Under the pieces are notes generated by a model that was not told the DNA's origin, did not search any database, and worked only from the letters and a program-made list of their open reading frames with translations. Both the position numbers and the translations under genes were made by a program. This document shows, piece after piece, positions 12,743-15,065 of a stretch of 45,113 bases of DNA (positions are counted from its first letter, which is position 1; every line of letters begins with the position of its first letter). The stretch is from Candidatus Moraniibacteriota bacterium (lineage in GTDB: Bacteria > Patescibacteriota > Minisyncoccia > Moranbacterales > UBA11712). The stretch is taken from contig JAQVJV010000006.1 of NCBI GenBank assembly GCA_028695025.1, positions 1 to 45,113 on the forward strand, in the 5' to 3' direction.

Positions 12743-13765
12743 CTAGAATTGTTTGATAAATCTCAAATCTCCACTCTCAATCCAACGGATATCATCGATT
12801 TTGTATTTCATCATAGCAAGGCGCTCAAGGCCAAAACCCCAAGCGAATCCTTGATACTTGTTCTTTGGATATCCCGCCGCCGCAAAAACATTCTGATTGA
12901 CCATTCCGGCACCGCCAATTTCAATCCAACCCGCTTGTTTGCAAGTTCGACAACCTTTTCCGCCACAAATTGAACAACTGATATCAAATTCAAAACTTGG
13001 CTCGGTGAACGGAAAAAAGCTGGGCCGCAAACGGATTTGCGTTTCTTTTCCAAAGAAAATCGTGAAGAATTGTTGGGCGATATATTTAAAATTCCCAACA
13101 CTTATATCATCGCCGACCATTAAAGCCTCAAATTGATGAAGTGTATGCTCATGTTTGGCGTCCGTTGCTTCATTTCGAAAAACCCGTCCAGGAGCGACAA
13201 TTCGCAAGGGTGGTTTGTGTTTTTCCATATAGCGAATTTGCACTGGCGAGGTATGGGTACGCAAAACCAAGCTTTCTTTCTTGGATTTCACCCAAAAAGT
13301 ATCCTGCATATCACGCGCCGGGTGGTCTTTCGGAAAATTCAAAGCGTCAAAATTATAACGCTCAAGCTCCACTTCCGGTCCGTCGGCAATTTCAAAACCC
13401 ATGGAAGTGAATATTTTTTCAATATCCCGCTGAACCAAAGTGATCGGGTTCAAGTGTCCAAGCTCTTGCTTTTTTCCCGGCAAGGTGACGTCAATCGCCT
13501 CTTTTTCCCAATCGACTTTTTCAGACATTTCCCGGCCGTGTTTTGCAATTGCATTCTCAATTTCCATCCGGATCCTGTTGGCCAGCGCCCCGACGGTTTT
13601 TCTTTTTTTTTCATCCAAATTCTTGAGATTTTTGAGGATTTCCGTGAGCTTTCCTTTGCGGCCGAGATATTTCACTTTGACATCATAAAGCATCTGCTCC
13701 GAAGCAGTTTTTTCGATTTCTGCAAAACTCTTGGTTTTGATTTCGGCAATTTTTTCTTTCAACAT
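12743..13765 (-). CDS. pheS: Phenylalanyl-tRNA synthetase alpha subunit
   Basis: 'NFPKDHPARDMQDTFW', 'LRTHTSPVQIRYM', 'FRPSFFPFTEPSFE', 'GFAWGFGLERLAMMKY'. Confidence 0.96.
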   Translation of the reverse strand: MLKEKIAEIKTKSFAEIEKTASEQMLYDVKVKYLGRKGKLTEILKNLKNLDEKKRKTVGALANRIRMEIENAIAKHGREMSEKVDWEKEAIDVTLPGKKQELGHLNPITLVQRDIEKIFTSMGFEIADGPEVELERYNFDALNFPKDHPARDMQDTFWVKSKKESLVLRTHTSPVQIRYMEKHKPPLRIVAPGRVFRNEATDAKHEHTLHQFEALMVGDDISVGNFKYIAQQFFTIFFGKETQIRLRPSFFPFTEPSFEFDISCSICGGKGCRTCKQAGWIEIGGAGMVNQNVFAAAGYPKNKYQGFAWGFGLERLAMMKYKIDDIRWIESGDLRFIKQF

Positions 13766-13914: not shown

Positions 13915-13933
13915 CTGGCTCCCTCGAAACCAG
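13915..13933 (-). terminator. Terminator downstream of tRNA-Tyr
   Basis: CTGGTTTC-gag-GGAGCCAG (with G-U pairs) followed by CTTTTGTTCTTT on the minus strand. Confidence 0.5.
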
Positions 13934-13946
13934 TTTTTGCAAAATG

Positions 13947-14029
13947 TGGGTGCGGCAGGACTCGAACCTGCGAAGCCCGGAGGGCGCCAAATTTACAGTC
14001 TGGAGCAATTGCCGCTATGCGACGCACCC
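13947..14029 (-). tRNA. tRNA-Tyr(GTA), class II with variable arm
   Basis: GGGTGCG/CGCACCC acceptor, CCAGA-CTGTAAA-TTTGG anticodon arm, GCCC-tcc-GGGC variable arm, GCAGG-TTCGAGT-CCTGC T arm. Confidence 0.93.
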
Positions 14030-14808
14030 ATGTTAATAAACTCCAAGAAGCGTTGTTCATGCTTCTTATTGCCAAATCCGATTACTTTATGATATTGAAC
14101 TAGATCTTTTTTCTTTGTTAAGTATATATTTTTATCATTGCTTATTTTCGAAGGTGAAAATCCCATTAACACTAACATCTTATGCGTTGAATTCAACAGA
14201 GGCCTGGATTTATTACAAAAAGACAGCTGTGTTCCAAATCTCAATTTATACACTGAACCGTCAGTATCAAAAAATCCTCTTAGGGCTTTTTTAATAAATT
14301 CGCGGCGATCGAATATCCATTTAGGGAAATCAACTTGATACTTAACTTTATTGGAAACCATCCCCATTGAAAATAACCACCTGACAAGCCTGACAGAACC
14401 TAGATAAACCACGATATCACCTCTTTTAGTATACGCTTTTTTGGGACGAACATTGAATAGTTTTTCCATTAAATCAACCACATAATCAACGAATTGCTCC
14501 TCTTTTTTCCCTAACGTTACTGTTATTTGCGATGTCGTTATATGACCATCACCCAGGATAATACCCATAAATTCGGCAAGATTGGCTGAAAATCCGGGAA
14601 TTTTCACATCTGTTCTGATATTATTGAATCCCTTTTTTGCTGATCGATTTATTGGAATCTTCAATCTGATCAACCTGTCATATACCGTACTCTCGTTTAT
14701 TTTGAGAATTGTTGCAATATCTCCAATTGATTTATTCTGTCCGACATAAAGTTCGCGCAGTTCCTTTTTTTTAACTTGCTCCTCGATTTTCGTCCACTTC
14801 GTAGCCAT
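13993..14808 (-). CDS. LAGLIDADG homing endonuclease with N-terminal HTH; C-terminus overlaps tRNA-Tyr
   Basis: Two motifs 'FMGIILGDGHI' and 'LRGFFDTDGSVYK'; N-terminal HTH 'KSIGDIATILKINESTVYDRLIRL'; RBS AAGGA upstream of ATG. Confidence 0.88.
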   Translation of the reverse strand: MATKWTKIEEQVKKKELRELYVGQNKSIGDIATILKINESTVYDRLIRLKIPINRSAKKGFNNIRTDVKIPGFSANLAEFMGIILGDGHITTSQITVTLGKKEEQFVDYVVDLMEKLFNVRPKKAYTKRGDIVVYLGSVRLVRWLFSMGMVSNKVKYQVDFPKWIFDRREFIKKALRGFFDTDGSVYKLRFGTQLSFCNKSRPLLNSTHKMLVLMGFSPSKISNDKNIYLTKKKDLVQYHKVIGFGNKKHEQRFLEFINMGASHSGNCSRL

Positions 14809-14850
14809 GTCCTTAATCTATCCAAATAACATCCGTTTGTCAAATTATTA

Positions 14851-14874
14851 AATTGACCGCTCTGCCACCTACCC
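14851..14874 (-). pseudogene. Orphan 5' half of a class II tRNA (tRNA-Tyr-like)
   Basis: GGGTAGGTGGCAGAGCGGTCAATT matches acceptor plus D-arm layout of class II tRNAs, then breaks off into AT-rich sequence. Confidence 0.6.
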
Positions 14875-14892
14875 AACTTATATTCAATTGTG

Positions 14893-14987
14893 AGCCGTCC
14901 ATCAGAGTCGAACTGATAACCTACTGTTTACAAAACAGTTGCTCCCCGCCCGTACCGAACGGCACGTTCGGGCGGGTGCCATTGAGC
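14893..14987 (-). pseudogene. tRNA-Thr(TGT)-like remnant with palindrome in the D-loop
   Basis: GCTC...GAGC D-stem, ACTGT-TTTGTAA-ACAGT anticodon arm, ATCAG-TTCGACT-CTGAT T arm; 3' acceptor GGACGGC lacks a matching 5' strand. Confidence 0.65.
14945..14976. repeat. 32 bp GC-rich palindrome inserted in the tRNA-Thr-like D-loop
   Basis: CCCGCCCGTACCGAACGGCACGTTCGGGCGGG; nested CGAACG-tgc-CGTTCG. Confidence 0.75.
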
Positions 14988-14992
14988 CCATG

Positions 14993-15065
14993 AGCCGAAG
15001 GTGGGAGTCGAACCCACGGCCAACGGTTTACAAAACCGTTGCTCTGGCCACTGAGCTACTTCGGC
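14993..15065 (-). tRNA. tRNA-Thr(TGT)
   Basis: GCCGAAG/CTTCGGC acceptor, ACGGT-TTTGTAA-ACCGT anticodon arm, GTGGG-TTCGACT-CCCAC T arm. Confidence 0.94.

Follow-up and report, generated by a model that had tools for sequence, protein, structure and literature searches.

The window comprises the 45,113 nucleotides of contig JAQVJV010000006.1 from an uncultured, ultra-small bacterium of Candidatus Moraniibacteriota; all features described below are encoded on its minus strand. A complete class II tRNA-Tyr with anticodon GTA (13946–14029) was identified by ARAGORN and Rfam. Its right neighbor is pheS (12743–13765), and its left neighbor is tRNA-Thr(TGT) (14992–15065; ARAGORN/Rfam and comparison), which is conserved at this place across the order. 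An ORF of 271 residues with an ATG start (13993–14808; ORF reading and Pfam) lies between the two tRNA genes and resembles LAGLIDADG homing endonucleases. The initial annotation of this DNA had described an ORF that enters the tRNA-Tyr without interruption and terminates within its anticodon loop, and both points were confirmed. The ORF runs in frame from 14808 to 13993 into the tRNA at 14029–13946, its final 12 codons, including the stop codon, overlap the tRNA (13993–14029), and the TAA falls at tRNA positions 35–37.

A 24-nt orphan tRNA-Tyr 5' half (GGGTAGGTGGCAGAGCGGTCAATT, 14851–14874), cut in the D-arm, ends 42 nt before the ATG of the ORF, close to the 40 bp first estimated. As had been noted, it stops at a CAATT that is also reached in the D-arm of the intact tRNA. 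A sigma-70-like promoter sequence (TTGACA-17-TAGATT, 14815–14843) is located between the orphan half and the ORF, within the element. It is a consensus match only, with three matches found and 3.7 expected, and shuffled sequences give such matches too. The nearest homolog (G102, Candidatus Moranbacteria UBA2206; loci L002 and L118), with 68% protein identity, has TTGACC-17-TATTAT at the equivalent position. The hairpin followed by a T run on the 3' side of the tRNA-Tyr (13915–13933), which resembles an intrinsic terminator, is likewise a consensus match only (0.9 expected by chance; also obtained with shuffles). Additionally, positions 14892–14963 hold a second, degenerate tRNA-Thr (33 bits), with a D-loop insert that resembles the palindromic inserts of displaced tRNA halves described below.

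The LAGLIDADG protein and its homologs

The 271-residue protein matches Pfam LAGLIDADG_3 (E=2.3e-12) and has a helix-turn-helix-like (HTH) region at its N-terminus with a weak HTH match; the Pfam search gave these two matches and no zinc finger. Alignment identified two LAGLIDADG motifs, the first at residues 77–88 (LAEFMGIILGDG, 14545–14580) and the second at residues 177–185 (RGFFDTDGS, 14254–14280). Asp87 in motif 1 and Asp181 and Asp183 in motif 2 are invariant among 16 homologs. An AlphaFold2 model built on these 16 aligned homologs has a mean pLDDT of 88, and its best matches among solved structures in the PDB are LAGLIDADG homing endonucleases (I-Tsp061I and I-DmoI) and homing-endonuclease inteins. 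The tRNA-encoded tail (GASHSGNCSRL, residues 260–271) is the only badly predicted part, being disordered with a pLDDT of about 35; therefore, the overlap between ORF and tRNA lies outside the fold of the protein. The nuclease is under purifying selection, with dN/dS well below 1 (dN 0.03 and dS 0.29 for L090/L091). The protein has the two motifs, the conserved acidic residues and the fold of a LAGLIDADG homing endonuclease, and we infer that it cuts DNA and is mobile. With a promoter-like sequence of its own and its absence from empty alleles, it corresponds to a free-standing homing endonuclease. Classification as an intein was rejected, since the host gene is a tRNA and the ORF stands alone.

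A single-sequence scan of genome contigs returned no homologs; they were found with an alignment-based scan. In public genomes, every one of the 33 named Tyr-type homologs adjoins or overlaps a tRNA-Tyr; in 32 of them the stop codon falls within the tRNA, and ORF ends range from −53 to +10 nt relative to the tRNA-Tyr start. A random gene end is expected near a same-strand tRNA start in about 0.3% of cases (an estimate based on 48 tRNAs in 984 kb). More distant homologs number 47, of which 41 abut a tRNA according to ARAGORN (37 tRNA-Ser, and three tRNA-Gln in DPANN archaea). By sequence reading, four more archaeal homologs end in a tRNA-Gln that appears to be intron-interrupted; the ORF of one of the remaining two continues across an entire tRNA, and that of the other is cut off by the contig end. 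Such loci at tyrosine, serine or glutamine tRNAs are spread over many ultra-small bacteria and some archaea. At some Ser loci, the orphan may supply the start region of the ORF, with the acceptor GGAG serving as ribosome-binding sequence and the ATGGC of the D-stem providing the start codon.

Each tRNA isotype forms one group in the nuclease tree, with the minimum possible number of changes (two). Members of one named lineage fall apart in this tree (Doudnabacteria; Yanofskybacteria), and a Gracilibacteria member groups with a Vogelbacteria member, a scatter of the kind expected for transfer. PheS identity is 64% with G102 (68% for the nuclease) and 32–39% with the f17 genomes (55–57% for the nuclease), a comparison that is only suggestive as a test for transfer. 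A viral scan yielded only distant homologs, none near tRNAs, and no phage vehicle; these viral relatives are embedded, intein-like, in ORFs of ~650–1470 residues without an adjacent tRNA.

Native and replacement tRNA-Tyr alleles

Of the 131 genomes of the order, 102 yielded a tRNA-Tyr, and 70 loci were read beside that of the window. The usual gene order is tRNA-Thr(TGT), tRNA-Tyr, tRNA-Thr(GGT) and tRNA-Trp, the first two being separated by little sequence. In G054, which belongs to the same family as the window genome, tRNA-Thr is followed by an intact tRNA-Tyr and pheS, in synteny with the window. This tRNA-Tyr begins GGGTAGGTGGCAGAGCGGTCAATT|GCACC and is identical to the window orphan at 24 of 24 positions, as is the intact tRNA-Tyr of G100. 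An exact match at a syntenic locus indicates that an empty site exists, and its extension over all 24 nt places the insertion point on the 3' side of the D-arm. Empty alleles are present in G054 and in most of the order. As demonstrated at the level of sequence, the native tRNA-Tyr is interrupted in its D-arm just past GGTCAATT. The proposal that an endonuclease gene had entered the D-arm of a tRNA-Tyr is therefore borne out by the tRNA-Tyr found at the empty site, and the orphan, being an exact match to the native allele, does not derive from an unrelated tRNA.

Within the window genome, an 18-nt query for the native D-arm, with up to three mismatches allowed, matches the disrupted orphan only. 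G102 shares this insertion, and its orphan has decayed further (..GATAGAGTGGTTAATT). Most homologs retain just the last ~12–15 nt of the orphan, and none is detectable in about a fifth of the loci. A profile of the full 24-nt orphan is too strict for decayed copies (12 of 34), and the 15-nt D-arm part is better kept; with the D-arm motif, orphans were found 5' of the ORF at 23 of 34 Tyr loci at p<0.01, compared with one of 33 control regions. The orphan ends share one D-arm point across dozens of loci. The identity of the orphan, the unique D-arm match and the 33 of 33 homologs at tRNA-Tyr, against an expectation of about 0.3%, argue that this arrangement is not due to chance.

The resident tRNA-Tyr differs from the native one along its length. 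Comparison with the 70 other loci gives a D-arm of GTCGCATAGCGGCAATTGC in the resident tRNA versus GTGGCAGAGYGGTCAAWTGC in the native, with the core TCGCATAGCGGCAATTGC where the native tRNA has GGCAGAGYGGTCAAWTGC. The T-arm is GCAGGTTCGAGTCCTGC, where the native tRNAs of the order usually have GGGGGTTCGAATCCC.., and the acceptor stem, including its 3' strand, is also unlike that of native tRNA-Tyr. The two acceptor strands of the resident tRNA pair with each other, which indicates that it is a working unit. The whole tRNA, beyond its 5' half, appears to have been imported into the order. Thus, the replacement proposed in the initial annotation was upheld but its restriction to the 5' half was not, as D-arm, T-arm and acceptor stem are all foreign. 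The genome is 99% complete and a single tRNA-Tyr was found in it (one pattern match), its other long tRNAs being Leu, Ser and one stretch typed as tRNA-Asp; therefore, the rescue copy must work.

The replacement D-arm type (type B) occurs at five of 71 loci of the order, all five with a nuclease ORF between tRNA-Thr and tRNA-Tyr. The same type is the ordinary tRNA-Tyr in other Paceibacteria families that lack the nuclease. The possibility that this D-arm was made by the element or is unique to it was consequently rejected; it is a natural foreign allele that was not made for immunity. Most likely, the element arrived together with the foreign tRNA-Tyr.

Of 58 empty tRNA-Tyr genes, 45 contain the 17-nt D-arm consensus around the insertion point with at most two mismatches, compared with none of 34 nuclease-linked ones (p=8e-15), the two sets being drawn from different taxa. 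Because of this difference in taxa, a comparison paired within each locus is fairer, and here the native D-arm is matched more closely by the orphan region than by the resident tRNA at 29 of 34 loci (Wilcoxon p=5e-5). These results suggest that the substitute tRNA escapes the cut of the nuclease, and the pattern resembles that expected of a nuclease that brings a protected substitute.

Other nuclease genes provide independent parallels at the same tRNA gene. In G056, a 92-residue GIY-YIG ORF lies 3' of an orphan, GGGCAGGTGACAGAGCGGCCAATTGTACCAGACTG, and continues into a replacement tRNA with 80 of 84 positions identical to the window tRNA-Tyr; the orphan equals the start of the intact tRNA-Tyr in G058, of the same genus. 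G031 contains an HTH-type gene between a 25-nt orphan, 24 positions of which match empty tRNA-Tyr genes of its genus, and a foreign tRNA-Tyr. The right-hand end of the conversion was not found in G031 by flank alignment, because the intergenic sequence is too divergent. PDDEXK_5 (PF11645) genes, a family to which we take I-Ssp6803I to belong, precede tRNA-Tyr in G100 and G101 with no visible orphan. At the GIY-YIG loci of G051, G105 and G125, orphan and regenerated tRNA belong to one type, and recoding is therefore not universal across the nuclease families.

Small GIY-YIG genes are very common in the order, being present in 114 of its 131 genomes; among the 30 that best match the G056 gene (L293–L322), 25 have a same-strand tRNA within 300 nt. 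A family of HTH proteins of 200–245 residues with a YW(A/G)EG motif (L261–L290), for which Pfam gives only a weak HTH, is within 300 nt of a same-strand tRNA at 29 of 30 loci, mostly 0–12 nt before tRNA-Thr, Tyr, Gly or Trp; the window genome has one member (L289, G000:C9:10440-10826). Inserts resembling group I introns, unnamed by Rfam at the gathering score, occupy the anticodon loop of tRNA-Tyr/tRNA-Thr genes at L267 and L269 (G079, G085) and of the tRNA-Thr(GGT) downstream of L263 in G031, in each case with an adjoining HTH-type, nuclease-like gene. Palindromic inserts of 30–70 bp, such as CCACCGCC...GGCGGCA, are seen at L053 (G051), L057 (G056), L062 (G105) and L296 (G125), in displaced, non-functional tRNA halves, where they lie at or next to the D-loop or the anticodon loop. 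Displaced 3' halves of tRNA-Thr (..TAAATAGGTCGTCAGTTCGAATCTGACGGGCGGCTC) lie just 3' of the intact tRNA-Thr(TGT) at L052, L054, L055, L067 and L070, suggesting another element or a duplication that acted on the neighboring tRNA. The slot between tRNA-Thr and tRNA-Tyr can also hold a non-nuclease ORF, similar to pyridoxamine-phosphate oxidase, at L053 (G051) and L056 (G055).

Proposed mechanism and rival explanations

We regard it as highly probable that the locus represents an intron-less "home-and-replace" element that lives in a tRNA gene. The nuclease would cut the native D-arm around GGCAGAGYGGTCAAWTGC, and the break would be repaired from a DNA copy that bears the element, with homology provided by the upstream tRNA-Thr and 5' half on one side and by the 3' part of the tRNA or its flank on the other. 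Nuclease and donor tRNA would be copied in together by this repair; the donor tRNA would restore tyrosine decoding and, by virtue of its different D-arm, would not be cut again. The two genes are probably on one transcript, in which RNase P cleavage at the 5' end of the tRNA would remove the stop codon of the ORF, such that each transcript could yield nuclease or tRNA but not both. The overall effect would be that of a natural home-and-rescue drive. The tRNA-regenerating, intron-less homing element originally envisaged is in keeping with the empty site, the native orphan and the lack of an intron, homing itself being deduced from these.

One rival is a tandem duplication: of two tRNA-Tyr genes formerly present, one was destroyed by an ordinary nuclease gene, its 5' half remaining, and the other merely lay downstream. 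A few relatives (G089 and G051) do have a near-complete pseudo-tRNA-Tyr beside an intact one. However, the Tyr-type ORF passes straight into the intact tRNA, with no space between them for the 3' half that a first copy would have lost, and the surviving tRNA of the window is of foreign type whereas the orphan is native; the confinement of type-B D-arms in the order to nuclease-bearing loci also speaks against duplication, which we judge very unlikely. We consider it very unlikely that the 5' flank of tRNA genes is simply a tolerated place for insertion, with no cutting or replacing and with incidental orphans. HTH-type, GIY-YIG and PD-(D/E)XK genes do lie just 5' of tRNAs as well, some without an orphan, and the loci at which no orphan is detectable would fit this reading; but the orphans end at a single D-arm point and exceed those of the control regions, tRNA isotype tracks nuclease clade, and the intact motif is present in the empty tRNA-Tyr genes.

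A split or intron-containing tRNA, with the orphan 5' half joined in RNA to the 3' half of the downstream tRNA and the nuclease as intron ORF, is hardly credible. The CAATT common to both halves, the unspliced-looking tRNA inserts of related genomes (L267 and L269) and the apparently intron-interrupted tRNA-Gln targets in archaea would agree with it. Against it, the downstream tRNA is a complete one that by itself reaches 52.9 bits with the Rfam tRNA model, the acceptor strand of the orphan (GGGTAGG) does not pair with CGCACCC, and in most homologs just the end of the orphan (~12–15 nt) survives. No group I or group II intron family reaches the Rfam gathering threshold in the window, L001 or L002. 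The 42 nt on one side of the ORF, with none on the other, leave no space for a group I intron, as the initial annotation had argued, and a group I intron-encoded endonuclease was rejected on the same grounds and because a complete tRNA lies downstream.

The home-and-replace reading can be extended to a broader proposal, to which we give an even chance: that home-and-rescue drives are widespread in Patescibacteria and DPANN archaea and use several unrelated nuclease families, that they replace essential tRNA genes with resistant foreign tRNAs, that tRNA genes in these lineages evolve through repeated horizontal replacement, and that a single transcript yields nuclease or tRNA as alternatives.

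Comparison with known systems

The locus would show how a selfish nuclease can persist in an essential non-coding gene without splicing, by means of a working substitute. The logic is that of engineered home-and-rescue gene drives, which here seem to have a natural prokaryotic counterpart that recurs with several kinds of nuclease and tRNA. The presence of tRNA fragments and foreign tRNA alleles in CPR genomes would be explained as well. The nucleases form a large natural collection whose targets would be tRNA genes, and predictions on the cut site, the immunity of the substitute and the RNase P switch can be tested. No description of a tRNA-replacing prokaryotic homing element was found in the literature searched, subscription papers and preprints excepted.

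Integrases of genomic islands and phages also insert in tRNA genes, restore the tRNA end and leave a displaced piece. These enzymes are site-specific recombinases that usually restore an identical 3' end and bring in larger cargo, whereas the window element has a LAGLIDADG nuclease, a displaced 5' half and a divergent tRNA. SegB of T-even phages is an intron-less, free-standing GIY-YIG homing endonuclease that adjoins tRNA genes, including tRNA-Tyr (PMC13096335; Brok-Volchanskaya 2008 cited therein). It shares with the window element an intron-less nuclease beside tRNA-Tyr, and GIY-YIG parallels occur in the order too; however, SegB belongs to phages, and is described in PMC13096335 as converting and amplifying the tRNA region, with mention of neither an orphan half nor a substitute tRNA. 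I-Ssp6803I, the PD-(D/E)XK endonuclease of a tRNA-fMet group I intron (Bonocora & Shub 2001, as cited in PMC3984707), is likewise a homing nuclease aimed at a tRNA gene but, as summarized there, resides in a self-splicing intron at the anticodon, in contrast to the intron-less window element with its different fold.

By mechanism, the closest systems appear to be fungal mORFs and WHO elements, in that a displaced native half lies beside a divergent complete gene, here a tRNA. In fungal mitochondria, mORFs consist of a LAGLIDADG or GIY-YIG ORF that has entered a gene and brings a foreign second copy of part of it (Allomyces atp6; Glomus atp6, atp9, cox2 and nad3; PMC3630166). As in the window, the nuclease is inserted with a foreign gene part and the native part is displaced; mORFs, however, occupy protein genes and carry the C-terminal part, whereas the element described here sits in a non-coding tRNA gene into which the nuclease frame continues. 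In Torulaspora and Lachancea yeasts, every homing event of a WHO element substitutes a resistant donor version for the 3' end of FBA1, the old fragment staying behind, and several WHO elements accumulate at a single locus (Coughlan et al. 2020, PMC7282813). Common to these and the window element are a LAGLIDADG-type nuclease, no splicing, an essential host gene as target and an old fragment beside the nuclease gene. Membership in the WHO family in the strict sense was rejected, given the lack of a zinc finger, the other nuclease subfamily and the other target. WHO elements replace the 3' end of a eukaryotic nuclear protein gene and encode HO/VDE-related proteins with an intein-like region and a C-terminal zinc finger, whereas the window element, found in bacteria and DPANN archaea, displaces the 5' half of a tRNA gene, apparently replaces the whole tRNA, overlaps it with its ORF and encodes a nuclease of an unrelated subfamily. 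It would thus work like a WHO element without being one.
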